A stretch of DNA of 64,000 nt from a virus: the IMG/VR virus record IMGVR_UViG_3300032053_000060, positions 1 to 64,000 of that record. The stretch is one strand, 5' to 3'. Every line of letters starts with the position of its first letter. Positions within the stretch are counted from its first letter, which is position 1. The notes under the pieces are model-generated. The model did no database searches, had not been told where the DNA came from, and saw nothing but the letters and a program-made list of their open reading frames with translations. A program made the position numbers and the translations under genes. This document shows, piece by piece, positions 12,001 to 60,571 of this stretch.

Positions 12001-15000
12001 AATATCCATCAACTTTGTCTGCTGAAACCGGAGAAGTCCAAGATAAATCTGCACCATAACCACTAATAGGTATTACTGTCAATCCTGTAGGTTGACTTGG
12101 AGAAGTGATATCTGGAACTCCATTAGAAACTGTATATTCATATGCACCAACATCTGGAGGAACATCTCGTAGAGTTCCATCAGCATCAGTATTTGGAAGA
12201 TTGCCAGAACTCTTACCAGTATTTAGTAATGTCAACGCACCAGAAGTTAAATGTGCATTTCTGCGGGCATAACTATAATCATTTGCATAAGAAAAGTTTG
12301 CAAAATTTGTTGTATAATCACCAGCATTGTAATTTAATGCTATGTTTCCACCACTAATCATATTACTTACTGGTATTACGAAGTTTTCAGCTACGTTATT
12401 AAATGCACTAGTTCCATACGTTGGAGAAAGTATTGTTATAATTGGAACTTGGACACCAGATTGACTTCCACTTGTAGCTCTAAGTATAGTATTAAAGTTT
12501 ATTCTACTCTTTGTACCAGCAGTTTTTAAGTATATTCCATAAGGGTGGTCAATTATTATAATATTATTTTCAATCGATACGTTATATGCAGAAGTACCAG
12601 TTGCTGATGGTATAATACCATAAATTCTACCTTCTGGACCACTAGCAGCATTCCAAGCTCTACTTAAATGTGCTTGTTTAGGATTTGTAAATGCTATAAA
12701 TTCATTATTTTTAATATATGAAATTGGATTAGTGCTAGAAGCTCCTAACAATAACATTCTACCTTCAGTATTATTTCCACTATTAACTGTTGCGAATTTA
12801 GTGTGAGCATTTAAAACTTTATTATATTCAAATGTAGCATAATCTGATTGTAATGTTACTGCCGCTGTTGAAGTTGTACCTATTGCGAAATCTTCAATTA
12901 TATTATGACCAATATAAGCACTAGTAGATCCCGAATACGATTCTATGCCGCCTATATTGTATAAATGATTTCCTCTAAAAGTATTTCCTAATCCATAATT
13001 TTTAATACCAGTACCTATACCAGCTTCTGTTATCCAATTCGTATCAGTCCAACTTGAAGTATCTTGTGCGCCATATATAGTACAATTTTCAATTGTTATA
13101 TAACTTGAATTATTACCAACTCCGGTATATGTGGTTACAGCTTTATTAGCATTAAATATACCAGTTATATCAGCATGTCCAGATGGGGTGTTTGCTCTAC
13201 TTATTGTTAAACCTTTGAAATTCCATCGATTAGCATTTCTTAAAGTTAAACTACGAATAACTGGAGTATGTCCAGGCATTGGTAATACATATACATCAGC
13301 ACTTGCTGCAATATTTCCAGAAGAAATATATGGAGTTCCGTGGTATCCACGATATAGATAAATTCTATCACCAGGATTAAACGTCTTAGCATTTACAACA
13401 TCGGCTAACGTATTCCATGGTTGACGTATAGTGCCAGGATTATTAATATTACCAATTAATGGATTTACATAAAATTCGGTTTGAGTAGTTGTGACTCCTG
13501 CTGATGTTGTTAATGTAATAATGTTACTAAATGATGATTCGTTATTTGATGTATCTTTTGATTTAACTTTATAAACATATTCAGTATTATCAATTAATCC
13601 AGTATCAGAATATGATAATCCTGTAGTAAATGCGATTGGATTAACGAAAGAATTTCTATATACATTATATCCACTAACAGCAACGTTATCAGTAGAGGCG
13701 TTCCAAGATAACGATATTGACGACGATGATGACACTTGACCAGATAATGAAGGAGTAGTTGGTCCTGTTATATCACTGGTAATTGGAACAGTTGTAGTTG
13801 CGGTAATAGAATTGCTGTAAACAGATTCATTATTTGAACTATCAACGGCTGCAACATTGTAAATATAAGGAGTATTTTGAGTTAATCCAATATTTAAATA
13901 AGACAATCCAGTTACAGAAGTTATGATTGACGAATTTCTATAAACATTATATGAAACTACAGCAACGTTATCGGTCGAAGATGTCCATATTAAATTAACT
14001 GAGGTTGGAGTAATTGTTCCTGTTGATAATACTGGAGAAGAAGGTAGCTCTGTATCAGTTGTGGTATCATAAGAAACATCGCTAAAATTTGATATATTTC
14101 CTAATCCGTCTAATGCTCTAATTTTATAATAATATGTTACACCAGAATTTAATCCAGTATCATTCACATCATTGCTATTGTACGCAATACCAGATAGCCT
14201 TAATGAAAATCCACTTGTATCAGAAGTTAAACTTGAATATATGTTATAACTACCATTACTATCAATATCTGTAGTTGCATCCCAAGATATTGATATACTG
14301 TTAGGTCCAGAATTTATAACTGCAAAGTTTTGTGGTATTTGTAAAGTTCTACCAGTTGTTATAGTTTGGGTGGTACTATATGCTGAAGTATTTCCAGATA
14401 AATCAAAAGATTTAACTTTATAAGTATAAACAATATTTTCAGATAATCCAGTATCAGTATAATAATTTTGAGTTGATCCAGTTATTTCTATTAAATTTCT
14501 TGCTAATATATAACCAGCTAATCCAACTCCACCAATATTATCAGTTGAAGCATTCCACGTTATATATGTGCTAGTTGAAGATAATGTTGATACTGATAAT
14601 CCAGTTGGAACAGAAGGGGCAACTAAATCTTCTGACGATGATGTTATTATATTTACAATATTACTAGCATCTGATAAATTATTATAAGCATCTTTTGCTT
14701 TTAATGTGTAATTATATGAAGAATTTGAAACTATGGTTGTATCAGTATAATTTAATACTCCGTCAACAACCGTGGCTAATAAATTTGAATCTCTATAAAC
14801 ATTATATGCAACTACTTCAAAATTATCCGTCGCCGCATCCCATAATAATTGTGCAGACGATGTAGTTAATGTTCCTGCTGATAATGTTGGAGTAGATGGC
14901 GCAATTAAATCTGGACCAGCAGTTATACCATTACTTAAAGTGGAAACATTGTAAAATTTATCAAAAGATTGAATAGTATATGTACCACTTGCTGCGGGAT

Positions 15001-16555: not shown

Positions 16556-16597
16556 TTTTTCAATCTCCCTCAAAATTTAGTTTCTTATTGATATAGT

Positions 16598-17381: not shown

Positions 17382-19145
17382 TTAGCAATTTATCTTCCAT
17401 TTTTTATATCCACAATCCCATAATTTATATATTTCATTAGTTTTCGTTATTTCGCTTTCACTACCATTTTCAAGTTTAAATAACTTTTTAAGTCTATATT
17501 TATTAAAAGTAAATCTATGTTTTCGCTTCCATAATGTAATATTTCCAACATAAAAATATCTAATTGGTATACAACTGATCAAAGAAAACCCATTTTTTAA
17601 ATATACATCTCCACTACCCCACCTATTATCACTGTATGATATTAAAGTTTTCGTTCTATTAAATCTTCTAAAATGTGTTAATAATTTACTAAATGCACCG
17701 GGAATAGAACAATTTAACTTATTACAAAATCTATTTAGCTCAAAATCAGCTTTTCTAGTTTTTATAGCGTTATTAAAACACATTATAGATATTAGTTCAT
17801 TTTTATAATATAACCCATAAGATATAGTCGTTTGTTTACAATATCCTTGTAAATGATTAGTTTCACAAAATACATGGCTATCATATTTATTAACCATTTT
17901 AATTTCACATTTTCTAGCAAATACTTTATAATCACAAATTCCTAAAGAATTTTTTATTTTAGATTTACAAATTTCATTTTTATCATCCCATTCATCTTCA
18001 AAAATAGTCAATAACTTCACATTTTTTTCTAAACATTTGAGTAATTTATCATTATGATAATTTTTATCTGATATATATTTTTCACTATGCCAAATATTTC
18101 CACAAAATTCTATAGCAAGATTTTTATTAGGAATGAAAATATCTAATTCTTTTGGGGAAATAACAGTTTTATCATTTTGTATAACTATATCTAAATATAT
18201 ACTTTGTACAAAGTCGTATACTTCATTTTCTTTTCCTCTTTTTATACTTTTATAACATTTAGGACATACAAGTTTATAATACTTTCCAGTTATTTGCGAC
18301 CAAGAAAAATTAAAATCATGTCCACAATCATTACATTTAAAATTTATAAGGGATTCAGTGGTATTATAATATATATCAGTATCAGGAATAAATATTCTAT
18401 TTTCTTTACATATATTTTTTAATTTTTCACAAACTTGTTTTTTATTTTTTAGTTTACTACACCCTAAACACTTATTTAAATTATTTATTAAAGTTTCAAC
18501 TTCATAACCACAATCATTACACTTAAATTTAGATTTAACTCTTGTACCATTAAATTCTATAATTGACCAATTAAGTTTTTGTATTTTATTTAAACAACTT
18601 GGGGTTATAACTTTATTAATTGATGGGTGTGGTATGTTAAATGTTACACCATTTTCAATTTTAATCTTTTCTATTTTATTTAAATACTCAGCTTCAGTTA
18701 AAATGCCAATACTTCTTATTTTGCAAATTTGACATTCTATTTTTTGTTGAGTTTTTTCAAAATATCCTAAAGATTTAATAACTATCTTATTTAAATCATT
18801 TTTACAAATAAAAGTTAGAGAATCATCCCATCTATTATAAAACTCTTTTTTTGGTTCATAATCTAAATTAAATTTATCACAATAATCTATTATTAATTGT
18901 TTTGGTATGCCCATTTCTATATACTTTTGTTCTTTTTCACAATGAGGACAAATGGTAATATCTTTTTGATTTCTGCGTATTTGAGTTATAGAAACTTTAT
19001 AAATATGATTTAAATTATTTTTACACTTAATTTCTATTAAAGTATTACAATTGAATTCTGATTTACTAGGAATATTTATTTCAACATTTTTAAATAAAAA
19101 ATATTCATTTAATAAATCCGTCATGTTCGGCTTTGGACGAGGCAT
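17382..19145 (-). CDS. Free-standing Vsr-like homing endonuclease with zinc fingers (long form)
   Basis: A 587-residue probable homing endonuclease. CxxC pairs occur along the first 300 residues (for example CPHCEK, CQICK, CNDCGY, CLGCS, CNDCGH, CPKCYK), suggesting four or more zinc-bound DNA-reading modules. The nuclease core starts near residue 315: PKELDIFIP then LAIEFCGNIWHSE and FEDEWDDK, which gives the Asp, Glu, His and Asp positions expected in the EDxHD/Vsr-like group. A further C-terminal region (about 430-587, with NHLQGYC and SYSDNRWGSG) is shared with the next gene. AAGGA lies 8 nt before the ATG. It sits between the major capsid gene and the giant fibre gene, a typical place for an intron-less selfish gene. 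Confidence 0.75.
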   Translation of the reverse strand: MPRPKPNMTDLLNEYFLFKNVEINIPSKSEFNCNTLIEIKCKNNLNHIYKVSITQIRRNQKDITICPHCEKEQKYIEMGIPKQLIIDYCDKFNLDYEPKKEFYNRWDDSLTFICKNDLNKIVIKSLGYFEKTQQKIECQICKIRSIGILTEAEYLNKIEKIKIENGVTFNIPHPSINKVITPSCLNKIQKLNWSIIEFNGTRVKSKFKCNDCGYEVETLINNLNKCLGCSKLKNKKQVCEKLKNICKENRIFIPDTDIYYNTTESLINFKCNDCGHDFNFSWSQITGKYYKLVCPKCYKSIKRGKENEVYDFVQSIYLDIVIQNDKTVISPKELDIFIPNKNLAIEFCGNIWHSEKYISDKNYHNDKLLKCLEKNVKLLTIFEDEWDDKNEICKSKIKNSLGICDYKVFARKCEIKMVNKYDSHVFCETNHLQGYCKQTTISYGLYYKNELISIMCFNNAIKTRKADFELNRFCNKLNCSIPGAFSKLLTHFRRFNRTKTLISYSDNRWGSGDVYLKNGFSLISCIPIRYFYVGNITLWKRKHRFTFNKYRLKKLFKLENGSESEITKTNEIYKLWDCGYKKWKINC

Positions 19146-19180: not shown

Positions 19181-20611
19181 TTAAATGTCAACAATTTTAT
19201 GCCACAAAAACTTAATAGATCCACATTTATAAACTTTAATAAATCCGTTTGATGTCATAATGTCGTTTTCGTTCTTAATTTGCGTCTGGTAACGACTTAA
19301 TACTTTATTTCCTTTTATCCATACATATCCAGGATCAGTTATTGATATTTGTTTAAAATTTAACTTTTTGTATAAATTGCCACAAGACCAATCCATATCT
19401 GCATATGATATTATATTTTTAGGGTTTATAATTTTTATAAAGTGAGATAATAATCTACTAGCGCCACCAACTATAGTATCCTTTGAAACATATCTTAATA
19501 GTTCATATTCGTGATCAGTAAATCTACTTTTACCAAATGTCATTAACGCAACTAATATGTTATCATTATATAATCCATAATTAAATGATGATATAGTCCA
19601 TCCTTGTAAATGATTTTCTAAACAAAACTTTTTAGCATCTTTATAAATGACTTCTTTTATTTGTAATTTTCTAGCAAATATAATAACATCTTTTTTTAAT
19701 ATAGATTTTATTCTATTTTTAATGATTTGATTTTTATTAATCCAATCATGTTCATAAATCATTATAATGTTTATATTTTTAGATAATCCAAGAAGTTTTT
19801 TGTCTTTGTGATAATATTGCCCCTTTTTACCGAAACTATGCCAATAATTTCCATTATACTCAAATGCGACATTTAATTTTGGAAAATAAAAATCTAATTC
19901 TTTTGGATTAATTGCTGATCTATCATTTCTAATATAGTCAATATTTTCTATTAATCCCAATGAATCGAAATATTTTTTTAATTCGTTTTCACCATTACTT
20001 ACAGAAGGCATTATTACACATTTTGGACATCCATTTGCCAAATATATATGATTATGTATATTTTGTGAAAATTCGCCATGTTTTTTACATATTATTGTTC
20101 TATTCAACCCAGTATCTTCCATTTTTGAATAATCATATTTATCGTTATGAATTTTATTAGCTTTTTCTATCCATATGTCTTTATTATATGTGTGATTTCT
20201 ATTATATATTTCATGTGAACATTTATTACAAATATGTTCAGATTTTTTATAAAATAATGATTCTATTTTTATAATTCTTGAATGATTATGTTTTAAACAA
20301 GTAATTTTTATTTTAGTTTTATTTCCATTAAATTCTTCCATCATTTCAATTTTAATGTTAATAGTATCAAATTTTTTTATTTTTTCGTTATATTTTTCAA
20401 TGGTTAATGGAGAATTATCATTACAACATTTAATTTTTCTGGCTTGAAATGTGTATTCTCTAGATTGCAGTTGAGAATACTTATGAATTGGACAAAAAAC
20501 TTTTATTTTATCTTTTTGTGTTTCTAATCCTGTAAAAGTGTATTCATATCCTGTTTTTTGTGAAGATTCATTCAATCTATTTGATATTTCATCTTTAGTC
20601 ATTTTTTTCAT
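19181..20611 (-). CDS. Free-standing Vsr-like homing endonuclease with zinc fingers
   Basis: A 476-residue probable homing endonuclease related to its downstream neighbour. The N-terminal 205 residues contain zinc-ribbon units, including CNKCSHEIY and the common phage pattern DKYDYS...C..HGEFSQ...H....GCPKC. The nuclease core (about 225-290) shows PKELDFYFP, VAFEYNGNYWHSF and YEHDW. The C-terminal region (about 320-476) contains NHLQGW and SYADMDWSCGN, matching NHLQGYC and SYSDNRWGSGD in the other protein. The start has AGGAG about 10 nt upstream. It lies just after the capsid protein terminator, so it is probably expressed separately from the capsid operon. Confidence 0.75.
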   Translation of the reverse strand: MKKMTKDEISNRLNESSQKTGYEYTFTGLETQKDKIKVFCPIHKYSQLQSREYTFQARKIKCCNDNSPLTIEKYNEKIKKFDTINIKIEMMEEFNGNKTKIKITCLKHNHSRIIKIESLFYKKSEHICNKCSHEIYNRNHTYNKDIWIEKANKIHNDKYDYSKMEDTGLNRTIICKKHGEFSQNIHNHIYLANGCPKCVIMPSVSNGENELKKYFDSLGLIENIDYIRNDRSAINPKELDFYFPKLNVAFEYNGNYWHSFGKKGQYYHKDKKLLGLSKNINIIMIYEHDWINKNQIIKNRIKSILKKDVIIFARKLQIKEVIYKDAKKFCLENHLQGWTISSFNYGLYNDNILVALMTFGKSRFTDHEYELLRYVSKDTIVGGASRLLSHFIKIINPKNIISYADMDWSCGNLYKKLNFKQISITDPGYVWIKGNKVLSRYQTQIKNENDIMTSNGFIKVYKCGSIKFLWHKIVDI

Positions 20612-24220: not shown

Positions 24221-27001
24221 TTATGCGAAACTTTCTAATGCTTCTCCACCAGTCGATTTCTCCGGTTTAGATGTGGTTTCTTTTGATTTTCCGGTAATAT
24301 CAGTACCACTTTCAGTTTCTGGCGCTGAAGGTTCTTCTGATGAACTGTCCATGTCTCCTAAAGATCCACCACTAGATCCACCACTAGATCCACCACTAGA
24401 TCCACCACTAGATCCTCCTGGAGCAATTTTATTTTTATTTAATTTTAACGCTTCTTCATTTTCTAATATTTCGTCAGGCTTAAATTTTAAGAATCTTCGC
24501 ATTAACCATGTTTTATCAAACATTGGAGTTTGTCCAGCATCTCCAGGTTCTGTATATGGCATAAATCTTTCGAAATTTTCGGCTCTTTGTGTTAATAATT
24601 CCGTTTCAATATAATCTTCAAATATATTATTACTATTAAACTTTATATGAAAATCTTTTTCTGTTATGCCATATTCATCAGCATATCCCTTTAATCTTAA
24701 ATGACTTAGATATATTTGTAAAAATACATTTGCAAATCTATTAACAAACTTTTGAACCATTTTATGAAAACGAACCTCTTCTCTAGTTATATCAGAAGTA
24801 TCTCCTAAGCTAAATCCAGAATCTTGCTCCATTCTAGACATTGGAATTCTTAGGGATCTAAATAGATTTTTTTGCATATAAACTATATCGTCAATTTGTC
24901 CAAGATTATCTCCACCTGGAAGAGTTTCAATTGATGACCCTTTACCATCTTGAGATGGAAACCAATAATCCTCAATCATTGCCATAGTATCAACAGTTTG
25001 TGATGCTTCACCCGTAGTTGGATCATACGTTTTTCTTTGGCGATATTTTTTCATTAATCCTTGAACGTAAGCTTCAGCTTTTTGTTTTGGTAATTTGCCT
25101 ACTTCAATTTTAAATATACGTCTCTCAGGAGCACGACAATTGTGTACCGGACAAGCATTTACAATGAAATTATGATGTTCAGATTCAACTTCAATATCAT
25201 AAACTTCACGCTTACCAACTGGGTCTATTGAAATAACATTTTCAAAATCTTCTAATGGGATTTTTGTTAAAGTTACTGTCCAAGAATCTTTACCAGAAAT
25301 GACTCTATTTTCAAATTTATGCGATCTTGAAGGTCTATGAGTTATTTTTCCAGATGATAATCCCAAAGAACACCATAATTCTTTTATATCTTCAATTAAT
25401 TTTTTATTTGCTAATTGAATAGTTGAAAACCATGTTCCATTATTTGTATATCGTTCACATCCATCAGCATCAGATAATCCTTCAATAAATGCCAATTTTA
25501 TAGAATTTGATGAATTAAAAACCCATTCTGGTATTCTTTTATTAGCAAATCCTTTTATATAACCTAAATCTTCAAATATTTTTACAGCTATAGTAGAATT
25601 AGTATAATAATTTGTATATTTTCTATTTTTGGATGTTGAACGATTACAAACGCCAAAATACTTAGACAATAAGCCACTATATTCTACATTAAGTTCTGGA
25701 TGTTCACCTTCAGCAAATACTACATTATTTTTTGAAATACTTCCATCACCTATCAAAAATCCAAATAATTTAGCAAAATCTTCATCTACATATTCTGGAA
25801 CATTTTTTATTTCTTGAGTTTTAAACGTTAATTCTTTTAATTTACAAACTTGTTCACCAAATTGTGTGTTTATTTTAGTTTTTTTAGTTTTTTCTTCAAA
25901 TTTAGCATTTATAAATTGATGTCGTTTAATTTCTAATTTTCCAGCTTCTACGTAATCAATTTTTTCAGTTGTAGTATCTTTAACTAATATTGGATGATCT
26001 GGAGTACATATCAATTCATTATGTCTAGTTCTTACTTTTATAGTTTCTTTTTCTCCACTATTCCACTTATTTGTAACTTTTGTAGGTATTAATATTCCAT
26101 TATTATAAGAATATACATTATCACCTATATTTAAATCTTTAATATATTTGTATCCATTTTCAGTTTTAACTCTAGATTCAGAATCTAAACAAAGTCTATA
26201 AATGACAAGAGAATCTTCTAATTGTTTAAGTTTTCTATAATCAACTTTCGCATAATCTAAGAATGATCTAACTATTTTAGTTTGTCTATCTGGATAATCA
26301 TATAATCCAGAATTGGCATAAGCCACCATTTGAGTAGGCATAACTAAAATATTTGAAGGACCTTTATGTACGAATTGGTATATATTATCAGATTCTATTT
26401 CTTCCCATATAGGATGAGTGAACTCCGGTCTTAATTTTTTTATCTTTAAAATTCCTCGATCTTTTGCAGTTTCTGGGTCAACAACCTTTTCAAAGGAAAT
26501 TTCACCATCAATCATATATTCCATCCACCATTCATTAATATACTTATCAGCTTCCAAAACTTCTTTATATATGTATTTCCATTCTTTATTTAAATTTTTT
26601 AATATATTCTCATTTTGCATGAATTTTGGATTTTTTATAAATAAATTCATAAAATTTCCATCATCATCAAAGTTTATAGCCTCATCTTCTATTTCGCCTA
26701 ATGCAAATGAGATTACAGGAAACATTGACATATCACGACGTGACGATAACATCGAATTTTTATTAGATTCTGTTTTATATATAAATGAATTTAATTGACC
26801 AGTCTGTTTTTGAAATTCTGCTGAAGATATAGTAGAAACGTCGTCCATTTCACTTGCTGCTGGGATATTCGGCTTTCCATACTTATCTTCTTGTCGGTCA
26901 AAAACATTAAAATTTCTTTTGTAATGTGTTGCTTGAGCCTGTTTAGACCAATTATTGCGCTTAACAAAACTATCTATTACTTTAGAAAACATATTTGCCA
27001 T
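24221..27001 (-). CDS. 20: Portal vertex protein gp20 carrying an intein
   Basis: A 926-residue precursor. Removing residues 271-621 leaves a 575-residue portal (T4 gp20 has about 524), the dodecameric ring through which DNA enters the head. Portal signatures are LEDSLVIYR joined to RAPERRIFKIEVG after splicing, KYRQRKTYDP, EDYWFPS, GS.IETLPGG.NLG and RIPMSRM.QDSGFS. The intein begins with Cys at residue 271 and ends in His-Asn before Cys, interrupting the conserved IYR..RAPERR. The C-terminus is an added Gly-Ser repeat linker followed by an acidic tail. The start has GGGGA about 8 nt upstream and a TATAAATA box 63 nt upstream. Confidence 0.93.
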   Translation of the reverse strand: MANMFSKVIDSFVKRNNWSKQAQATHYKRNFNVFDRQEDKYGKPNIPAASEMDDVSTISSAEFQKQTGQLNSFIYKTESNKNSMLSSRRDMSMFPVISFALGEIEDEAINFDDDGNFMNLFIKNPKFMQNENILKNLNKEWKYIYKEVLEADKYINEWWMEYMIDGEISFEKVVDPETAKDRGILKIKKLRPEFTHPIWEEIESDNIYQFVHKGPSNILVMPTQMVAYANSGLYDYPDRQTKIVRSFLDYAKVDYRKLKQLEDSLVIYRLCLDSESRVKTENGYKYIKDLNIGDNVYSYNNGILIPTKVTNKWNSGEKETIKVRTRHNELICTPDHPILVKDTTTEKIDYVEAGKLEIKRHQFINAKFEEKTKKTKINTQFGEQVCKLKELTFKTQEIKNVPEYVDEDFAKLFGFLIGDGSISKNNVVFAEGEHPELNVEYSGLLSKYFGVCNRSTSKNRKYTNYYTNSTIAVKIFEDLGYIKGFANKRIPEWVFNSSNSIKLAFIEGLSDADGCERYTNNGTWFSTIQLANKKLIEDIKELWCSLGLSSGKITHRPSRSHKFENRVISGKDSWTVTLTKIPLEDFENVISIDPVGKREVYDIEVESEHHNFIVNACPVHNCRAPERRIFKIEVGKLPKQKAEAYVQGLMKKYRQRKTYDPTTGEASQTVDTMAMIEDYWFPSQDGKGSSIETLPGGDNLGQIDDIVYMQKNLFRSLRIPMSRMEQDSGFSLGDTSDITREEVRFHKMVQKFVNRFANVFLQIYLSHLRLKGYADEYGITEKDFHIKFNSNNIFEDYIETELLTQRAENFERFMPYTEPGDAGQTPMFDKTWLMRRFLKFKPDEILENEEALKLNKNKIAPGGSSGGSSGGSSGGSSGGSLGDMDSSSEEPSAPETESGTDITGKSKETTSKPEKSTGGEALESFA
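24363..24410 (-). repeat. Four perfect 12-nt tandem repeats coding Gly-Ser linker
   Basis: The plus-strand unit gatccaccacta is repeated four times without change and then partially. It encodes Gly-Gly-Ser-Ser repeats near the portal C-terminus. Slippage would change linker length in steps of four residues without breaking the frame. Confidence 0.9.
25139..26191 (-). mobile_element. Intein with LAGLIDADG endonuclease in the portal gene
   Basis: A 351-residue bifunctional intein. It starts CLDSESRVKTENGYK, has the Hint block B motif CTPDHPILV, two LAGLIDADG motifs (LFGFLIGDG and FIEGLSDADG) and the end block VYDIEVESEHHNFIVNACPVHN shortened here to its ends VYDIEV and PVHN, followed by Cys+1. 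All splicing residues are present, so self-splicing and homing both look possible. The insertion lies in the most conserved part of the portal, as is usual for inteins. Confidence 0.92.
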
Positions 27002-27063: not shown

Positions 27064-27071
27064 TATTTATA
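27064..27071 (-). promoter_or_regulatory. Possible late promoter box of the head operon
   Basis: Exact TATAAATA on the minus strand in the gap between the divergent gp20 and gp4 genes, 63 nt before the portal start. It is the likely late promoter for the 20-68-21-22-23 operon. Confidence 0.5.
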
Positions 27072-30660: not shown

Positions 30661-32114
30661 TGTTTGATACTAATTTAGTAAAAATAATAAAAATAGATAA
30701 CGTTTACGCAAAAATTGTAACAGAACACCCATCTCTACTTAATGATGTATCTAATTATTTTACAGTATATGTACAAGGATATAAATTCATGCCTAAATAT
30801 AAAATGGGCATATGGGATGGAAAATTGCGGTTTATAGAAAGAGATGGGACTTTTTTAATAGGGTTATTAAACTTGTTATATAAATTTATTAAAAATTATG
30901 ATATAAAAATAGATTTAGATTTAGATTTAGTAAATAATAATGTTGACTTTGAAGATGAATTTAATAATATAACTACTGAGTGGTTAGTGGAAAGTATAAC
31001 TCCTAGAGATTATCAATTAGAAGGTGCTATAAAAGCTATAAAATATAAACGAGGAATTTTGGAACATGCGACGGCTGCTGGAAAATCTTTAACTATCGCA
31101 ATGATATTAAAATATTTAGAATTGTCAAATAAATGTAAAAAAATGATGATTTTAGTTCCTACTGCTGGATTAGTTGAACAAATGTATTCTGATTTTTTAG
31201 AATACGGAATAGAAGAAAAATTATTGGGACGATTTTATGAAAAAGAGAAAAATATAGACCGATTAATAACTATATCCACATGGCAATCTATGCATGTACA
31301 TAAAGATTTAATAAATGAATTTGATTGTATTATTACAGATGAATGTCATACTCAGAGAGCAAATGTTGTAAGATCCGTATTATTAAATTCTGAAAATGCA
31401 ATCTATAGAATAGGGACTTCTGGAACTGTAGATTTACATAAATCGCAAAAATGGCTTATAGAAGGAGTTTTAGGTCCAGTTATACACAATATTCCACCAG
31501 CGTTTTTGATTGATAATGGTTATGCATCAGATGTTAAGGTTAATATTTTGTTTCTTCAACATAAAGAAGCTGATGTTAAAAAATTAAAAGGGATGCCATA
31601 CCAAGAAGAAAAAACTTGGATACAAACATGTAATATACGAAATAAAATTATTAGAAAACTTATTAAAAAACATCAAGAATTGGAGCATAACGTTTTAATT
31701 TTATTTGATCATATAGAGCATGGAAATTTTATTAAAGAAAGTCTAAAAGATTTAGAACAAGATGGGGCGCATATATTTATGGTTACTGGAGAAACCCCAG
31801 CTAAAGAGCGCGAACGTATTAGAAAATTTACAAATGAAAATAAAAAGGTGATTTTATTAGGTACTTATGGAGTATTATCTACAGGAGTAAATATAAATAG
31901 ATTAAATGCTCTAATATTTTCAGTTGCAGGAAAATCTATGATTAGAATATTACAAAGTATAGGTAGAGGTATGAGATTACATCATGAAAAAAATGGCGTA
32001 AGAGTATATGATATATGCGATAGTTTTAAATATTCAGAAAAACATTTAAGTGATCGTTTGACTATTTACGATAAGGCAGGTTATAAAGTTGACGTAAATG
32101 ATATAATACTCTAG
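30660..32114 (+). CDS. uvsW: UvsW-like superfamily 2 helicase
   Basis: A 484-residue DNA/RNA helicase of the T4 UvsW type (about 500 residues), which unwinds branched DNA and R-loops and helps the switch from origin to recombination-driven replication. Seen: an N-terminal UvsW domain with FMPKYKMGIWDGK, the Q-like RDYQLEGA, Walker A ATAAGKS (about 137-143), motif II DECH (about 226), motif III GTSGT, motif V GVLSTGVNI and motif VI QSIGRGMR (about 430). Translation is coupled to uvsY by a 1-nt overlap. Confidence 0.93.
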   Translation: MFDTNLVKIIKIDNVYAKIVTEHPSLLNDVSNYFTVYVQGYKFMPKYKMGIWDGKLRFIERDGTFLIGLLNLLYKFIKNYDIKIDLDLDLVNNNVDFEDEFNNITTEWLVESITPRDYQLEGAIKAIKYKRGILEHATAAGKSLTIAMILKYLELSNKCKKMMILVPTAGLVEQMYSDFLEYGIEEKLLGRFYEKEKNIDRLITISTWQSMHVHKDLINEFDCIITDECHTQRANVVRSVLLNSENAIYRIGTSGTVDLHKSQKWLIEGVLGPVIHNIPPAFLIDNGYASDVKVNILFLQHKEADVKKLKGMPYQEEKTWIQTCNIRNKIIRKLIKKHQELEHNVLILFDHIEHGNFIKESLKDLEQDGAHIFMVTGETPAKERERIRKFTNENKKVILLGTYGVLSTGVNINRLNALIFSVAGKSMIRILQSIGRGMRLHHEKNGVRVYDICDSFKYSEKHLSDRLTIYDKAGYKVDVNDIIL

Positions 32115-32125
32115 GAATAATTAAT

Positions 32126-33976
32126 ATGGCAGTATTTCAAAATAGTTCATTATATTCGTTATCCATTATGATAAATGGGGTTAGGAGAAATATACGTCCT
32201 GGAGAACAAATTTCTGGACCAGATTCTTTAGCAGCAGTTGTCGGATTAACTATTATAAACCCTTCAACTAAAACTATTATTCCTAAAGAAAATATAATAC
32301 AACCTCAAACTATAAATAATATAGCCTCTAAAAATAATTATAGACCAGAAATTATTCCAAAGTTTTTAATAAGTGAAAATAGTAAAAGTAATTTTAAATT
32401 TATAATAGATGAGGAAATAAAATATTTAGAAAATATAAAAAATAAAAATGAAATTCCATCAGTAACATTGGCAGTTTTGACAAAAAATCATTTAGACTTA
32501 ATAAAAACGTGTTGTGAATCTATTTTTAATAAAGTGCATTATAAAAATACAACATTATTAATAATAGATACTGGTTCTACAGATCAATCAGTTTTAGAGT
32601 ATTATAAATTGTTGAATGACAAATGTATATCTAAAAACTGGAAATATAAATTTGTACAATTAGATACTTTCCATTATAGTAAAAATTATAATTATGTTAT
32701 AAAAAACCATATTGATACTGATTACGTTTTATTACAAAATAATGATACGACAGCTATTAATGATTATGTTACAGAAATGATGCAAATTGGAATTATGAAT
32801 AAGGTTGGTTCAGTTGGTTGTAGAATGTTTTATCCAAATGGTACTATCCAACATGATGGTCAAACTTTTTATAATGGTAATAATAATATAATAAATAGTC
32901 CATCACATATAAATTTAAGCAAAACTAAAGAATCTGCCGATAAAGATGTTCCTGAAAAAATTTGTCTAGTTGATGGTAATACTGCCGCTGGCGCATTAAT
33001 GAGAACTAAAGATTATTTGCTTGTAGATGGGCTTGATGAAAATTATAAAGATATTTTTCAAGATGTAGATTTAATGGCAAAAATTCCTCATTTTTTAAAT
33101 AAGTTTAATTACTGCAATAAAAATGCAGAAATTTACCATATAGATAATGCTTCTAGAAAAGCCGTAGGTTTAAATAGAGTAAATATTGATTCTGATGTTA
33201 AGTATATTGATAGGAAATTTAAAGAAAATAATTTATTATATGCAAAATTACCTAAAAAAGTTGATTTTTCTATTATAACTTTAGTTAGGAATTTAGATGA
33301 CTATAAAGATTTTTTAAATAGTGTAAGAATTCAAAATGGACAACATACTATAGAATTAATAGCCATTCCAAATTTTCATAATACGTTTACATCTGCGGCT
33401 AAAGGATTAAATTATGCTAAGAGTATATCTTCGGGAGAAATACTAATTTATTGTCATGAAGATATTTTAGTCGGAGAAAACTGGCTAAATACTATTAAAA
33501 AACATATTGTAGAACTAACTCAAACCAATGAGCGAATTGGTGTATTGGGAATGGCTGGTGTTTCAGTGTCTCAAAAACCAATTTTCTTCTTAACTAATGA
33601 AAATGGTGATACTGTAAATAATTATGGCGCAAATACTAGGATTGAGTGTCCATATTTAGATGAATTATGTTTAATAACTTTAAAAAATTCAAATTTATCA
33701 TTTAATCATAATATATTTGACGGATTTCATTTTTATGGCGCAAACTTATGTTTAGATGCAAAATTAAAAAATTGTAAAAACTATTCAATAAATGCTAGTT
33801 GTTATCATAAGTCTGATGGTTCTAAAAATTTACGAACTACTGAAATGTATAATAAATATGCTGCTGATGCTAATAAATTTAATAATTACGCTAAATCTAA
33901 AGGGGTATTTAATTGGAGAACCACTACTGCAATGAGTGTTAATGGTAATATAACTCTATTTCCAAAGAAACATTAA
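32126..33976 (+). CDS. Tandem GT2 family glycosyltransferase with N-terminal GExIxGP module
   Basis: A 616-residue protein. Residues 1-50 are a small module (MAVFQNSSLYSLSI...IRPGEQISGP) resembling the N-terminus of the 195-residue gene at 16741. Residues about 110-360 form a GT-A family 2 domain: TLAVLTKN, LLIIDTGSTDQS, LLQNNDTTA, VGCRMFYPNGTIQHDGQ and FQDVDL. Residues about 370-600 look like a second, more diverged GT-A domain (FSIITLVRNLDDY, ILIYCHEDILVG). It should transfer sugars to a phage or host acceptor that cannot be named. It starts 11 nt after uvsW. Confidence 0.8.
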   Translation: MAVFQNSSLYSLSIMINGVRRNIRPGEQISGPDSLAAVVGLTIINPSTKTIIPKENIIQPQTINNIASKNNYRPEIIPKFLISENSKSNFKFIIDEEIKYLENIKNKNEIPSVTLAVLTKNHLDLIKTCCESIFNKVHYKNTTLLIIDTGSTDQSVLEYYKLLNDKCISKNWKYKFVQLDTFHYSKNYNYVIKNHIDTDYVLLQNNDTTAINDYVTEMMQIGIMNKVGSVGCRMFYPNGTIQHDGQTFYNGNNNIINSPSHINLSKTKESADKDVPEKICLVDGNTAAGALMRTKDYLLVDGLDENYKDIFQDVDLMAKIPHFLNKFNYCNKNAEIYHIDNASRKAVGLNRVNIDSDVKYIDRKFKENNLLYAKLPKKVDFSIITLVRNLDDYKDFLNSVRIQNGQHTIELIAIPNFHNTFTSAAKGLNYAKSISSGEILIYCHEDILVGENWLNTIKKHIVELTQTNERIGVLGMAGVSVSQKPIFFLTNENGDTVNNYGANTRIECPYLDELCLITLKNSNLSFNHNIFDGFHFYGANLCLDAKLKNCKNYSINASCYHKSDGSKNLRTTEMYNKYAADANKFNNYAKSKGVFNWRTTTAMSVNGNITLFPKKH

Positions 33977-33984
33977 AAAAGTAC

Positions 33985-34012
33985 TTGAAATTTTATTTTG
34001 ATCATATATAAT
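33985..34012 (+). promoter_or_regulatory. sigma70-type promoter of the 34-kb non-coding RNA
   Basis: TTGAAA, 16-nt spacer, TATAAT. It lies just after the glycosyltransferase stop and faces a gene-free region. Transcription should start near 34019. Confidence 0.75.
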
Positions 34013-34443
34013 ATAAATGTCACTATGACGTGTCGGTATTCTAAACAGTTTTTTTCCGACTATAAAAAAAAATAAAGAAGATTTGTTGATGTATATGTAA
34101 GTTGAATTTATTCTATAAACTTACATAGGTTCTTAAATAAACTGGAGTAGCCTGATTATAGACTATTTTTTCGTTTAGGTAAAGAACAAGGTATGCTAAA
34201 CATTAATATTTAATTATATTGATGTTGAATCGAGCACTTAACCCTTTAGTGTGGCCAAATTTGTCTGCGATGCACAAGAATACGGATTATCTTCTTATTC
34301 GTTAAGAGAAAATAACATAAAGAAGTGCTAGTAAGTTATATTATTAACTTAAAAAGCGTTATAAGGAAAAAAAATTACCTGATGTAAGGTTATTAAATTA
34401 TTGTTTATAATAATATTTTAAAATAAATAATAAAGTTAATGGT

Positions 34444-34480
34444 AAACGAAGTGAACCATTCTGTAATGAAACGAAGTGAA
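34444..34480 (+). repeat. Two 12-nt direct repeats in the RNA 3' region
   Basis: AAACGAAGTGAA occurs at 34444-34455 and 34469-34480, 25 nt apart. The first copy forms the loop and part of the arm of the hairpin at 34438-34460; the second is followed by ATGAAAG. Confidence 0.85.
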
Positions 34481-34495
34481 ATGAAAGATTTTAAT

Positions 34496-34520
34496 AAACA
34501 TATAAACTTAGTATGTTTTT
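34496..34520 (+). terminator. Possible terminator of the non-coding RNA
   Basis: AAACATA pairs with TATGTTT (7 bp, 9-nt loop), and the 3' arm runs into a short T tract. It overlaps the 3' end of the convergent gene at 34508. It is AT-rich and therefore only a moderate terminator. Confidence 0.4.
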
Positions 34521-35119
34521 AAAAAATTATTTTTAACTTTTGGTGCCCCTAAATTTCTTCTAGCTACACCACCAACAGCAATGCCTTTGTAAGTACTAGT
34601 ACTAACATTTCCTAATTTATATTTACCTAATAAAAATTTAGACCATTCTTCATCTAATTTTTCTAATTCGTTTATATCATTAAAATATATAGGAACTTCA
34701 AAGGATTTCAATTCTTTAAAATAATTATTTAAAGAAATTTTATCTTCATTTGTTAATAATCCATCTTTAGAAATTATAATTTTATGGTTTCCTGGTTTAT
34801 TTCCAATTTTTAATGGTAATTTGTCTGCATCTGGTTTTATTCTTACAATTCCACTAATTAATAAGTTTTTATCATTAATAGATGTTGACAATGGTAATAT
34901 ACAATCCCAATACATGTTATCAGCCATATTTGTATAACCTATAATTTCTCCATAATCGAAAGGATTAAGTTCACTACTACCCCATTTATAAATAGTCTTT
35001 TTTAAATATTCAAGTCTAATTGGTAAAGGGGTTTGTATTCCAAGTTTAACTATATCACTCAATGAATAATTTTTTTTAACAGATTCGTATAATAATGATA
35101 AAAATTTAGCTGGGTTCAT
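34508..35119 (-). CDS. Unknown protein, faint resemblance to phage inorganic pyrophosphatase-like domains
   Basis: A 203-residue protein not firmly recognised. I chose the ATG at 35119 because GGAAGA lies before it; an upstream in-frame TTG overlaps that site. The stretch DYGEIIGYTNMADNMYWDCILP recalls the YG.I..T..ADG...DVFV block of phage pyrophosphatase-like domains, but one of the three usual aspartates is missing. The C-terminal 40 residues (YKGIAVGGVARRNLG) are basic and glycine-rich. It is convergent with the non-coding RNA and divergent from nrdA. A phosphohydrolase role is only a suggestion. Confidence 0.6.
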   Translation of the reverse strand: MNPAKFLSLLYESVKKNYSLSDIVKLGIQTPLPIRLEYLKKTIYKWGSSELNPFDYGEIIGYTNMADNMYWDCILPLSTSINDKNLLISGIVRIKPDADKLPLKIGNKPGNHKIIISKDGLLTNEDKISLNNYFKELKSFEVPIYFNDINELEKLDEEWSKFLLGKYKLGNVSTSTYKGIAVGGVARRNLGAPKVKNNFLKTY

Positions 35120-35155
35120 AATATCTTCCAATAATAGTATTTATATTTTTATATC

Positions 35156-35183
35156 TTGATTATTATTATTATTAAGATATAAT
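35156..35183 (+). promoter_or_regulatory. sigma70-type promoter of nrdA
   Basis: TTGATT, 16-nt spacer, TATAAT, about 80 nt before the nrdA start. It probably drives nrdA-N, the GIY-YIG gene, nrdA-C and nrdB. Confidence 0.65.
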
Positions 35184-35262
35184 TTAAATATATAAACTTT
35201 AAAAATAATATTGTTATTGATAAATAACAATCCAGATAAAATAAAGATAAGAGGATGCCTAT

Positions 35263-36909
35263 ATGACGGATAATACTATTGATATAAAAATGCCTGTTTT
35301 AATAAAGAAACGTTCTGGTAAAAACGAAAAGTTGGATATTAATAAAATTCATAAAGTTCTATCATGGGCTACTGAAGGATTAAAGAATGTCTCAGTTTCA
35401 GATATTGAAGTAAACGCTAGTTTACAATTAAAGGATGGAATTAAAACTTCACAAATTCATAAAGTTTTAATTGAGTCTGCTGTAAGTTTAATATCTGCTA
35501 AAACTCCAAATTACCAATTTGTAGCTTCTAGACTTTTAAATTATTATATTAGAAAAGAAACTTTTGGGTTATACACTTCAAAAGAGTTACCACATTTAAA
35601 TAAAATTATAGAAAAAAATGTAAAACTTAAAATTTATGATAAAGTAATTCTTGAACAATATACTAAATTGGAAATTGATTCTATAAATGATTATATTCAT
35701 CATGATAGAGATTTTAATTTTGCTTATGCTGGTATACAACAAATGGTTGATAAATATTTATTAAAAGATCGAATAACTAATATTTTACATGAAACTCCAC
35801 AATATACTTTTATGGTCATAGCAATGACTGTATTTGGACATTACCCAAAAGATACAAGAATTGATTATATCCGAAGACTTTATAATCAAATTTCATTATT
35901 TAAAATTAATTTACCAACTCCTATATTATGTGGCATTAGAACACCATTGCGACAATATAGTAGTTGTACATTGATTGACATTGGTGATTCATTACCTAGT
36001 ATATTTTCATCTAACACTGCTGTTGGATATTATACTGCTAAAAGAGCAGGTATTGGTCTTAATATTGGTCGCGTTAGAGCAATTGGATCTTCAATACGAA
36101 ATGGTGAAGTTGTTCATACAGGATTAATACCATATTTAAAAATGTTAGAAGCTACAACTAAATGTACTACACAAAACGGAGTTCGTGGTGGATCATCGAC
36201 TACATATTATCCATTTTGGCATTATGAAGTAGAAGAATTATTAGTATTAAAAAATAATAAAGGTAATGACGAAAATAGAATTCGTAAAATGGATTATGGA
36301 ATACAATTATGTAGATTATTTTATAAAAGAGTAAAAAATAATGAAGATATTACTCTTTTTAGTCCGTCTGATGTAAATGGGTTATATGATAGCTTTGGAG
36401 ATAATACTAAATTTGAAGAATTATATTTAAAATATGAAAAAGATCCGCTTATAAGACATAAAAAAATAAATGCTAGAGATTTATTTTCAAAAATTGCACA
36501 AGAAAGAATTGAAACTGGAAGAATTTATATTATGAATATAGATCATACTAATGAACATAGTTCATTTAAAGATCATATAAGTATGTCTAACTTATGCGTT
36601 GTTGGTGATACTAAAATTGATATAAAAATTAATGAAATAACCCAAATTACTACCATTGAAGAATTATTTAAAACGTATAATAAAAATGATGATATAAAAA
36701 TAATGAGTATGGCATTAAATAATGAAAAACAATATTCAAATTTAGATAATGTATTTAAAACTGGTGAAACAGACGAATTAATAGAAATAACAGATGAAAA
36801 AACAGGTAAAAAATTAACATGTACATTAGAACATAAAATATATACTAAAAATAGAGGTTATGTTGAAGCTAAACATTTAAATGAAGATGATGAATTATGT
36901 ATTTTTTAA
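35263..36909 (+). CDS. nrdA: Ribonucleotide reductase large subunit NrdA, N-terminal part fused to split-intein N half
   Basis: A 548-residue protein: 444 residues of class Ia NrdA followed by 104 residues of intein N half. It begins with an ATP-cone (KKRSGKNEKLDINKIHKVL). QYSSCTLIDIGDSL holds the conserved redox Cys (C225 of E. coli), and RAGIGLNIGR and GVRGGSSTTYYPFW are typical. The extein ends at SNL, exactly where the catalytic thiyl Cys (C439 of E. coli) should follow. The rest (CVVGDTKIDI, TCTLEHKIYT) is the intein N half, ending at a stop. The enzyme therefore needs trans-splicing with the product at 37280-38326. RBS: AGAGG before the ATG. Confidence 0.93.
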   Translation: MTDNTIDIKMPVLIKKRSGKNEKLDINKIHKVLSWATEGLKNVSVSDIEVNASLQLKDGIKTSQIHKVLIESAVSLISAKTPNYQFVASRLLNYYIRKETFGLYTSKELPHLNKIIEKNVKLKIYDKVILEQYTKLEIDSINDYIHHDRDFNFAYAGIQQMVDKYLLKDRITNILHETPQYTFMVIAMTVFGHYPKDTRIDYIRRLYNQISLFKINLPTPILCGIRTPLRQYSSCTLIDIGDSLPSIFSSNTAVGYYTAKRAGIGLNIGRVRAIGSSIRNGEVVHTGLIPYLKMLEATTKCTTQNGVRGGSSTTYYPFWHYEVEELLVLKNNKGNDENRIRKMDYGIQLCRLFYKRVKNNEDITLFSPSDVNGLYDSFGDNTKFEELYLKYEKDPLIRHKKINARDLFSKIAQERIETGRIYIMNIDHTNEHSSFKDHISMSNLCVVGDTKIDIKINEITQITTIEELFKTYNKNDDIKIMSMALNNEKQYSNLDNVFKTGETDELIEITDEKTGKKLTCTLEHKIYTKNRGYVEAKHLNEDDELCIF

Positions 36910-37384
36910 ATAATAAATTAGGATAATATACTATTATGTACAGTGTTTATAAACATACTTTTAAAGAAACTAATAAATGTTATATTGGTTATACGAAATT
37001 TTTAATAATAGAACGATTAAAAAAACATCATACAAATGCAATGTCTAATATACAAACAAAGTTTTATAGAGCAATAAGAAAATATGGAATAGAAAGTATT
37101 TCTTCTGAGATTTTATTTACAACCGAAGATGAAATATTAGCAAAACAAAAAGAAATAGAATTTATAAAAATGTATGATTCATTTAAAAAAGGTTATAATA
37201 TGACATTAGGTGGTGATGGAAAAGCTAATTTTTTAATAAATTCAAAACTAAAAAAATCTAACTATATAGAAGGAAGATTATGATTAAAATTAAAAGAATA
37301 AAAAAAGATATTAATATACCAGTATATGATATTACAGTTAAAGAAACTTCAAATTTCTTTGCAAATAATATATTAATTCATAAT
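36595..37384 (+). mobile_element. Fractured split intein in nrdA with an embedded GIY-YIG gene
   Basis: The intein N half (36595-36906, 104 residues) carries Cys1 (CVVGDTK) and block B with TLEHK. The C half (37280-37384, 35 residues) carries VYDITV, the F/G blocks and LIHN before Cys+1. Between them lie a stop codon and a complete GIY-YIG endonuclease gene. All standard splicing residues are present on two separate polypeptides, so the product should trans-splice to a 757-residue NrdA, the usual length. Confidence 0.92.
36936..37283 (+). CDS. GIY-YIG homing endonuclease between the nrdA intein halves
   Basis: A 115-residue protein that is essentially one GIY-YIG nuclease domain: YSVYKH (GIY position), CYIGYT (YIG position), a conserved Arg in IIERLKKHH, a Glu in QKEIEFIKMY and a closing GYNMTLGGDG. 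It has no visible separate DNA-binding domain. It starts 26 nt after the nrdA-N stop with a weak AGGA site, and its TGA overlaps the ATG of nrdA-C. It probably makes the whole fractured intein mobile. Confidence 0.85.
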   Translation: MYSVYKHTFKETNKCYIGYTKFLIIERLKKHHTNAMSNIQTKFYRAIRKYGIESISSEILFTTEDEILAKQKEIEFIKMYDSFKKGYNMTLGGDGKANFLINSKLKKSNYIEGRL

Positions 37385-38326
37385 TGTACGGAAATAACCT
37401 TGCCAACAACTCCAATAAATACTATTGATGATTCTGAAGGCGAAATAGCGTTATGCGTTTTATCCGCTGTTAATTTAGGACAAATAAATGATTTAGATGA
37501 CTTAGAAGAGACTTGCGAATTAATAGTTCGTACATTAGATTTCGTAGTTGAACATCAAGAATACCCAGTTAAATCTGCTGAACATATGAAAAGTCGAAGA
37601 AGTATTGGAGTTGGATTTACAAATTTAGCTTATTATCTTGCTAAAAATAAAGTAGGATATGATAAAACTGGTTATGAATTAATAGATAAAACTGCTGAAG
37701 CATTTCAATATTATTTACTTAAAGCATCTGTTAAATTAGCAAAAGAATTTGGTCCTTGTGCATATTTTAATAAAACGAAATATTCTGATGGAATTCTTCC
37801 AATTGACACGTATAATAAAAATGTTGATAAATTTTATAAAAGAGAATTGACATACGATTGGGAATTATTACGAAAAGATATTATACAATATGGTATTAGA
37901 AATTCTACATTATCAACTCAAATGCCATGCGAATCTTCTTCAGTACTAAATAATTCTACAAATGGCATAGAACCACCAAGAGGTTTGGTATCTACTAAAA
38001 AATCTAAGCAAGGGCTTCTAAAACAAGTTGTACCAGAAGCTAATAAGATTGGGCATTTTTATACTACAGCTTATGAAATGTCTAATGATGGATACTTAGA
38101 AATAGTTTCATTAATACAAAAATATTTTGATCAGGCTATGTCTGTAAACAATTATTATGACTTTACAAAATATGAAGATGGAGAATTGCCATTATCTATT
38201 GTTTTAGACAATATTATGTATGCTTATTCGTTGGGAATAAAAACTTTATATTATGCAAATTCCAATGATGGTAAAACTGACTCAGATAAAGAATCTGATT
38301 GCTTAGGTGGCGCTTGTTCGGTATAA
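37280..38326 (+). CDS. nrdA: Split-intein C half fused to NrdA C-terminal part
   Basis: A 348-residue protein: 35 residues of intein C half (IPVYDITV, NFFANNILIHN) followed by 313 residues of NrdA. The extein opens with CTEITLPTTP; this first Cys is the thiyl-radical Cys, with the essential Glu two residues on. IALCVLSAVNLG holds the second redox Cys (C462 of E. coli), GIKTLYYANS holds the two radical-transfer tyrosines, and the C-terminal CLGGACSV supplies the shuttle cysteines. GAAGGAAG precedes the ATG, which overlaps the stop of the GIY-YIG gene. It is not active until spliced. Confidence 0.93.
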   Translation: MIKIKRIKKDINIPVYDITVKETSNFFANNILIHNCTEITLPTTPINTIDDSEGEIALCVLSAVNLGQINDLDDLEETCELIVRTLDFVVEHQEYPVKSAEHMKSRRSIGVGFTNLAYYLAKNKVGYDKTGYELIDKTAEAFQYYLLKASVKLAKEFGPCAYFNKTKYSDGILPIDTYNKNVDKFYKRELTYDWELLRKDIIQYGIRNSTLSTQMPCESSSVLNNSTNGIEPPRGLVSTKKSKQGLLKQVVPEANKIGHFYTTAYEMSNDGYLEIVSLIQKYFDQAMSVNNYYDFTKYEDGELPLSIVLDNIMYAYSLGIKTLYYANSNDGKTDSDKESDCLGGACSV

Positions 38327-59319: not shown

Positions 59320-60291
59320 TCAATTATTATTGTATGCAGTCCAACCCCTGTGATATTTTCTAATTCCTTTTATAACCGAAAACATATTTCCACTATTTAA
59401 ATTGTTTTCTCTACAAAATTTATTCATATTTTTTATCTTAATTATTTCACCTTTTGGATTTATCATAATATATTCTTTTGACTTTATTTCTGATATTTTA
59501 TCACCCCAAGTTATTTTTCTTCCTTTCATAATTTTACTCATTCTTTCTTTATGTTCTTGAGTATGTTTATATCCTTTGTGGTTTCCAAAGGTTCCATTTA
59601 TTCTTTTAGTATTTAAAATTTTTTGTATGCTTTCTGGTGTTAATTTTCTCCCTTTAGAAGCTTTACTTATTTTTAATTTAGTTTCATCTGTCATTGGCTT
59701 TCTATTTTTATTACTATTCATAGTTCCGTTTATTCTTTTTGTATTTAAAATTTTTTCAATAGTTTCTTTTGAATGTTTATAATTTTTTCTTGATTTTACA
59801 ATCTTATCAATCCAAGTTATTTTTCGTCCTTTCATTTTTGCACTTTTCTTTTTTCTAGTTTCTTCAGAAACTATCACGCCAGAAGATCCTTCTCCACCAG
59901 ATGTCATATTTACTAGAGGTCCACTTTCATTAAACCTTTTTATATTTTTTATATAATTTATTTCTTCGATAAATGCGTCTTGTTCGGTCATATTTTCTTT
60001 TATTTTTATAATTAATGGATAATTTTTAGTTTCTTTTATAATTTTATTTATCTTTTTAATTTTATACGGGTTATAATTTTCGGATTTTAAAAAATGATTT
60101 TTATATCTTCTATCTTTTCCTTTACCTATATAAAATGGTTCATAATTAAATATAAAATTACAATTTTCATATTTATATATTCCAGGTTTTCTAGTATCTA
60201 ACAATGCGTATATATAATAATCTTTAGAATATAGTTTTAAATAAGATAATAAAAAATAATTTAAAAATAAATATTCTGAATAGTTTAACAT
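59320..60291 (-). CDS. GIY-YIG homing endonuclease with NUMOD repeats
   Basis: A 323-residue free-standing homing endonuclease. The N-terminal nuclease shows YYIYALLD and FYIGKGKDRRYKNH with Glu in FIEEINYIK, and LVNMTSGGEG. It is followed by about five NUMOD3-like units (ETRKKKSAKMKGRK, ETKLKISKASKGRK, EHKERMSKIMKGRK) separated by KILNTKRINGT repeats, and a C-terminal NUMOD1/HTH (NMNKFCRENNLNSGNMFSVIKG). It follows the small HTH gene by 1 nt and is convergent with the RmlC-RmlD gene, whose stop is 1 nt away. The opening 20 hydrophobic residues are unusual. Confidence 0.85.
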   Translation of the reverse strand: MLNYSEYLFLNYFLLSYLKLYSKDYYIYALLDTRKPGIYKYENCNFIFNYEPFYIGKGKDRRYKNHFLKSENYNPYKIKKINKIIKETKNYPLIIKIKENMTEQDAFIEEINYIKNIKRFNESGPLVNMTSGGEGSSGVIVSEETRKKKSAKMKGRKITWIDKIVKSRKNYKHSKETIEKILNTKRINGTMNSNKNRKPMTDETKLKISKASKGRKLTPESIQKILNTKRINGTFGNHKGYKHTQEHKERMSKIMKGRKITWGDKISEIKSKEYIMINPKGEIIKIKNMNKFCRENNLNSGNMFSVIKGIRKYHRGWTAYNNN

Positions 60292-60292
60292 A

Positions 60293-60457
60293 TTAAAATT
60301 CTTTTAATAATTTTTTAATATCTTTTTCTGCATATAAATTTCTACGACCTATTTTTTTAGAATTTAATATTTTTATTTTTTTCCATCTCCATATAGTTTG
60401 TCTACTAACTTTAAATTTAATTGATAATTCTTCAGTTGTATAATAAATATCTATCAT
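60293..60457 (-). CDS. Small MerR/excisionase-type HTH protein
   Basis: A 54-residue protein: MIDIYYTTEELSIKFKVSRQ starts it, followed by TIWRWKKIKIL, KKIGRRNLYAEKDIKKLLKEF. This is the HTH_17-type winged helix of excisionases and DNA-binding regulators (Y.T.EELA..F.VS..TI.RW...G..P....GRR..Y...DI). AAAGGA lies 6 nt before the ATG. Its stop is followed after 1 nt by the ATG of the GIY-YIG endonuclease, so the two form a coupled pair. It may repress the endonuclease or guide DNA binding. Confidence 0.8.
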   Translation of the reverse strand: MIDIYYTTEELSIKFKVSRQTIWRWKKIKILNSKKIGRRNLYAEKDIKKLLKEF

Positions 60458-60509
60458 AATAGGTCCTTTATATTAATGTTACATATGTATTTATAAATAA
60501 ATAAATAAC

Positions 60510-60537
60510 TTGATATAATACAAATATTTGTTATAAT
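60510..60537 (+). promoter_or_regulatory. sigma70-type promoter of the topoisomerase gene
   Basis: TTGATA, 16-nt spacer, TATAAT, 34 nt before the ATG at 60572. Confidence 0.65.
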
Positions 60538-60571
60538 TTGAAAGAATAATACATTTAAGAGGTATAATAAT

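Follow-up and report, generated by a model that had tools for sequence, protein, structure and literature searches.

What does the longest gene-free gap of a T4-like phage encode? The gap lies in the 64,000-nt stretch of DNA analysed here (the window), which comprises positions 1-64,000 of the 67,841-base record IMGVR_UViG_3300032053_000060. The source phage has a G+C content of 28%, and UvsY, UvsW, portal, scaffold, major head protein, DNA polymerase, UvsX, helicase and topoisomerase were all recognised in the window. At 531 nt (33977-34507), with the next largest gap measuring 280 nt, the region is out of place among its neighbours, as a first-pass annotation made from the sequence had remarked. 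That annotation had interpreted the gap as a large structured RNA, and the analysis reported here supports it. We consider it likely that the gap gives rise to a structured phage RNA that stands alone and acts in trans, is probably early and has a sigma-70-like promoter of its own. Comparison with related phages establishes a predicted pseudoknotted fold that is conserved, a fixed locus and a conserved promoter class, from which we infer transcription, early timing and action in trans.

The gap and its surroundings

The observation of a gene-free, structured region in the window was confirmed. The promoter right behind the upstream gene, the hairpins with stems of 10 and 11 bp, the nested long-range helix, the 7-bp helix closing 83 nt and the pair of 12-nt direct repeats near the 3' end, all remarked on in the first pass, were found in place (Table 1). 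The possible terminator fared less well, since an A/U-only hairpin does exist but is a weak candidate and was not detected by a terminator scan; it overlaps the end of the convergent reading frame (34508-35131).

Table 1. Positions of the putative RNA, its predicted elements and the flanking genes in the window
Feature	Position	Strand	Remarks
GT2, two-domain glycosyltransferase	32126..33976	+	Pfam; constant upstream neighbour, syntenic with uvsW in kin
Sigma-70-like promoter, TTGAAA-N16-TATAAT	33985..34012	+	11/12 matches; 8 nt after the GT2 stop codon
Inferred conserved structured core	34018..34389	+	ends approximate; 67% identity to G001; alifold z -4.4
P1 hairpin, GTCGG/CCGAC	34032..34060	+	4 shared pairs, 1 double-changed vs G001
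P2 hairpin, 10 bp	34094..34127	+	34094-34103/34118-34127; 9 shared pairs, 4 double-changed vs G001
Pseudoknot 5' strand, TATTCT	34109..34114	+	in the P2 loop; pairs with 34277-34282
P3 helix, GTTCTT/AAGAAC	34129..34187	+	6 shared pairs, 2 double-changed vs G001
P3b hairpin, 11 bp in the fold	34200..34225	+	variable; hairpin in G001 shorter and different
P4 long-range helix, AGCACTT/AAGTGCT	34233-34239 with 34323-34329	+	7 bp, closes 83 nt; probable
Pseudoknot 3' strand, AGAATA	34277..34282	+	directly before P5; zero gap in 9/9 drawn copies
P5 hairpin, CGGAT/ATTCG	34283..34301	+	5 shared pairs: 2 double-changed, 1 changed on a single side
P8 hairpin, AAGTTA/TAACTT	34333..34350	+	6 shared pairs, 5 double-changed vs G001
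Direct repeats AAACGAAGTGAA, two copies	34444..34480	+	34444-34455 and 34469-34480; first copy in a hairpin loop (AATGGT/ACCATT)
Possible 3' terminator hairpin, A/U only	34489..34525	+	34489-34502/34512-34525; weak
orf207, convergent	34508..35131	-	without known family; homologues downstream of the RNA in six kin

Folded on its own, the gap scored mildly better than chance on both strands (z of -2.15 on the plus strand and -3.65 on the minus strand). With fold scores as mild as these a single sequence could not settle the matter, and comparison was needed.

Some homologues of the convergent orf207 are longer (L250 3484-5184 and L254 3951-5096) and carry a second part with a sub-threshold match to NT5C (5'-nucleotidase). 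Elsewhere in the window, a single 4507-aa reading frame, unannotated here, occupies 3050-16573 of the minus strand.

Homologous gaps and covarying helices

Isolated phages are distant from the window phage, with best matches of 33-35% identity for UvsW and 34-37% for the capsid protein and partial matches only for GT2, and a direct DNA search of 50,697 phage records with the region gave no match. IMG/VR protein scans with orf207, GT2 and DnaB found no kin, and those with NrdB and a general UvsW alignment returned distant, non-syntenic phages only. The IMG/VR scan with the major head protein yielded 38 loci, and at nine of these the protein was 77-89% identical along almost its full length; UvsW was detected in 19 of 34 head-protein records, and GT2 comes after it in most. 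Scans with a GT2 alignment added one further viral locus, L273, which has no gap, and none in genomes, and a scan of genome contigs with the capsid protein returned nothing closer than relatives of 31-35%.

Sixteen stretches downstream of uvsW-GT2 were examined. A gene-poor gap of at least 340 nt follows the gene pair in 12 kin records, each counted once (G002 has the gene coordinates of G003, G031 has those of G020, and G021 is a cut copy of G013), and the gap is absent at five loci on the kin side (G026, G028, G033, G034 and L273). Together with the window, 13 gaps were compared: G001, G003, G004, G006, G007, G008, G009, G013, G015, G020, G024, G029 and the window itself. In a UvsW tree rooted at its midpoint only, the window groups with G001, G003, G004, G006, G007, G008 and G009 (support 91/88), and G015, G020, G024 and G029 form a second group (support 99/99); the fork joining the two is weak. 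The locus had been described at first as running from uvsW and GT2 to nrdA, of which the upstream half holds, uvsW and GT2 being constant there, but nrdA is not constant downstream.

The closest copy is that of G001, with 67% identity over 427 nt (E 1e-25). The folded conserved core spans ~34018 to ~34351-34389, and the A/T-rich 3' tail and the repeats are not conserved in G001. With helices chosen by eye, and with P5 guided by the pseudoknot in the window, G001 and G004, all 36 pairs of P1, P2, P3, the pseudoknot, P5 and P8 are standard in both the window and G001, although 16 of them have changed on both sides and one on one side. The pseudoknot, which reads TATCTT/AAGATA in G001, accounts for two double changes in its six pairs. 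When the 3' strands were slid by 1-3 positions as a control, at most 4 of 9 pairs remained, and no helix showed more than one double change. P8 is present with at least six pairs in seven copies (G006, G008, G007, G003, G004, the window and G001), and a hairpin equivalent to P2, whose loop (34104-34117) carries one pseudoknot strand, occurs in 9 of the 13 gaps. The counterpart of P4 in G001, CACTTAA/TTAAGTG, is shifted in register and its support is weaker, and because of this shift we keep P4 as a probable helix. A second TATTCT, at 34037-34042, was considered as partner of AGAATA and rejected, as the pairing fails in G001.

RNAalifold gave the alignment of the window and G001 a z score of -4.39, and none of 100 column shuffles scored as low. 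The reverse strand did as well or better (z of -5.82), so the assignment of the strand rests on the promoter and on the covariance models described below. Shuffles scored as low in 0 of 100 cases for G006/G008 and in 1 of 100 for G006/G007, and the larger sets were weak (8 of 100 for G006/G008/G007 and 19 of 100 for four sequences with G013).

The first-pass annotation had named covariation among homologues and a decayed gene in them among the observations on which its reading would turn. Helices covary, and no decayed gene came to light in the homologues, where the gaps after uvsW-GT2 share no gene; the gap is thus long, free of a conserved reading frame and furnished with covarying helices. 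That the structure is more than chance is argued by the covariation with G001 and by the recurrence in kin of its locus, its promoter and its pseudoknot core. Chance hairpins are frequent in A/T-rich DNA, and homing endonucleases and intein-like inserts abound in this phage, both of which would suit a decayed gene or intron, or mere chance structure in a spacer. We regard that explanation as hardly credible in view of the 16 double-changed pairs between two copies, the retention of promoter and locus, and the lack of a shared reading frame or of an Rfam intron match. The intergenic location likewise does not fit a group I or group II intron, for which Rfam gave no match.

The pseudoknot core in diverged copies

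Among the kin, the sequence of the core has changed almost completely and the locus and fold have been kept. In 9 of the 13 gaps the P2 loop pairs, through 6-8 Watson-Crick pairs, with the bases directly before P5, and P3 lies between the two. The sequence of the pseudoknot is different in every copy and its distance to P5 is always zero; shuffling the loop and the strand before P5 gave p values of 0.001-0.043 per copy. A descriptor scan found no matching core in the other four gaps (G009, G015, G024 and G029). The spacing from P2 to P5 is 38-48 nt in six copies and grows to 77 nt in G004, 128 nt in G001 and 155 nt in the window.

P5 can be identified by its loop motif, independently of the pseudoknot, in G006, G008, G007, G003 and G013 but not in the window, G001 or G004, and the P5 of G020 contains one mismatch. 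The loop is close to AUAAGRCA in six kin copies. The strand GUCACAUA is exact in G006, G007, G008 and G013, with variants seen by eye in G020 and G003. A search with a DNA pattern combining the P5 loop with GTCACATA returned two known copies and two matches inside coding sequence; the P5-loop/GTCACATA motif was therefore not found outside this phage group. Used as a BLAST query, the G006 copy matched phage and plasmid sequences in short stretches at chance level or not at all. The P5 loop motif is present in both UvsW groups, in G020 on one side and in the set of G003, G006, G007 and G008 on the other. With copies and motif in two UvsW clades, the RNA appears to be ancestral to the phage group and the window subtype to be derived.

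A descriptor written post hoc placed the core element as the top match in 7 of the 13 gaps. Among 300 shuffles, the score was reached by none for G006 and G007, by 1 for G003, 3 for G013 and 4 for G004, and by 39 for G008 and 44 for G001. The window element ranked fourth, and in G020, G009, G015, G024 and G029 the element was not the top match. An earlier, looser descriptor was mostly insignificant, with 0 to 86 of 100 shuffles as good.

Covariance models gave a more selective view of the same copies. Model R1, built from G006, G008 and G007, recovered G003 (E 6e-4 in 170 kb), and R2, rebuilt with G003, recovered G020 at the same locus as the best match in 58 kb (E 0.004); these two are the only copies recovered by models not built from them. 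The window, G001, G004 and G013 were missed by the models, the window by R2 even with filters off, and the window subtype therefore owes its link to the others to place, promoter and fold and not to a model score. The wider structure was drawn by hand because automatic multiple alignments misplace P2 in diverged copies. The mean fold z of 11 cores was ~-2.0, against -0.26 in 40 background windows.

Promoter, relation to known RNAs and possible role

Among 62 promoter-like sites in 32000-37000, the promoter of the window gap ranks first, but since 45 such sites are expected by chance it means little by itself. Across the homologous gaps, a sigma-70-like promoter was found within the first 70 nt in 8 of 13 cases against 0.49 expected from shuffles, counting TTG-class sites with at least 9 of 12 matches and a spacing of 15-18, a motif picked after it had been noticed. 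Several head genes on the minus strand of the window have the T4-type late motif TATAAATA a short distance upstream. As late motifs mark the head genes, the promoter of the RNA is of another type and probably early, and early expression of the RNA is suggested by promoter type alone. Altogether TATAAATA was noted upstream of minus-strand genes at 27071, 23257, 16605, 1186, 35145 and 43409, and it occurs on both strands at ~60492-60495 in the second longest gap of the window (60292-60571, 280 nt).

The promoter also bears on whether the fold could be a structured 3' UTR of the uvsW-GT2 operon, which would stabilise or terminate the transcript or be processed from it. Hairpins are common at 3' ends and G007 is the one gap of the 13 without GT2 directly upstream, yet a strong promoter separates GT2 from the RNA in 8 of the 13, and a pseudoknotted fold of 330 nt far exceeds what termination needs. 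In G007 (L254 2080-2607) GT2 and the RNA are separated by an inserted 175-aa reading frame, which is followed by a promoter-like TTGAAA-N16-TAGAAT found by eye. On this evidence we consider a 3' UTR unlikely.

Downstream of the RNA, the next gene differs among kin in identity and strand. An orf207 homologue faces the RNA in the window and in six kin (in G007 after other reading frames), and kin without it have other genes there on either strand. Such variation favours a stand-alone RNA over a leader, and action in trans is suggested by the RNA's own promoter together with the absence of a constant downstream gene. A riboswitch-like cis-regulatory leader of the next gene would accord with G001, G013, G020 and G024, where the next large gene is on the same strand, but no same-strand gene is constant downstream and nrdA, the next such gene in the window, starts ~750 nt beyond the gap, which makes this account highly improbable.

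For the stand-alone RNA that we favour, host-type RNA polymerase would start a transcript of ~330-510 nt at the sigma-70-like promoter just after GT2, and the transcript would stop close to the end of the convergent gene or ahead of it. Within it, the P2 loop would form a pseudoknot with the strand abutting P5, presumably stacking on P5; P3 would sit between P2 and P5, where the window subtype would have an extra domain. Towards the 3' end, the 12-nt repeats of the window are absent from G001, and similar strings were seen by eye in the gaps of G004 and G009, the latter (L256 2035-2733) holding a tandem array of the unit ATTATTGAAATTATTATTA.

Searches of Rfam 15 with the window gap gave no match at the gathering score or at an E value of 5, and those with the kin gave none at the gathering score and chance-level matches only up to an E value of 10. 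No tRNA genes were found in the window or in the 13 kin loci. The first pass had left it between a new and a diverged large RNA; as far as Rfam 15 tells, the RNA is new, and no match to a diverged ROOL or GOLLD was obtained. Few RNAs are less well understood than large phage RNAs such as ROOL and GOLLD, and RNA-only cages have been revealed by recent structures of some of them; ROOL measures ~600 nt, and ROOL and GOLLD often, though not always, lie near tRNA islands. They are described as large, structured and pseudoknotted phage-encoded RNAs of unknown role, GOLLD often exceeding 800 nt (PMC12286853), traits that apart from this length also fit the window RNA. A distant member of these or another known large RNA family, perhaps a self-assembling cage, is nevertheless very unlikely, given the lack of an Rfam match and of tRNA genes beside the RNA, the smaller size of the drawn core and a helix order that differs as drawn.

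Phage ICP1, which is virulent and carries no tRNAs, likewise has a gene-free gap, between gp139 and gp140, from which it produces a ~800-nt noncoding transcript, its most abundant phage transcript (PMC7567579); the window RNA differs in neighbours and size, its sequence having been compared by phage BLAST only. In phage K, lnc001 and lnc002 are long intergenic RNAs adjoining tRNA genes, and lnc001, like the window RNA, has its own promoter, an early one (PMC9241854), but phage K is unrelated, its RNAs are tRNA-adjacent and the phage search detected no sequence shared with the window RNA. The manA and wcaG elements, structured RNAs of T4-like cyanophages, are 5' leaders (PMC2864571), whereas the window RNA has its own promoter and lacks a constant downstream gene and an Rfam match. 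A literature search whose coverage was largely without subscription papers and preprint servers found no description of this RNA.

The helices have drifted freely and the P5 loop and GUCACAUA recur in several kin copies, which would suit a scaffold-like RNA and not a base-pairing antisense RNA. The binding surface presented by such a scaffold might then consist of the P5 loop, conserved as it is, and of the strand GUCACAUA. One possible role, a guess and the least certain step of our proposal, is that of an RNA which serves early host takeover by holding or decoying a protein or ribonucleoprotein of the host. More speculative still, the RNA could represent a class of its own in this wholly uncultured group, tied to one locus, its sequence replaced completely around a pseudoknotted scaffold that is retained, and could work in infection as an RNA machine without known counterpart, for example as an RNA assembly or as a decoy for a host ribonucleoprotein. 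A further and apparently unrelated family of large RNAs suggests that phages make recurrent use of big structured RNAs. The family is tied to one locus in T4-like phages of a deep group, one record of which measures 331 kb, and its modelled core is short (~115 nt with the pseudoknot) and open to probing and searching.

Several mobile elements were noted in the window. Four homing endonuclease genes lie at 14-1138, 17382-19145, 19181-20611 and 59320-60291; three belong to the HNH class (phrog_559/phrog_3339 type) and are situated around the head and tail genes. The portal gene (24221-27001) contains an insert matching helicase and RNR families, probably an intein. In addition, nrdA (35263-38326) is split by an intein-like insert with a separate GIY-YIG endonuclease reading frame in its middle (36936-37283), and a similar layout of nrdA and GIY-YIG genes was seen in three loci of other phages (L011, L070 and L081).
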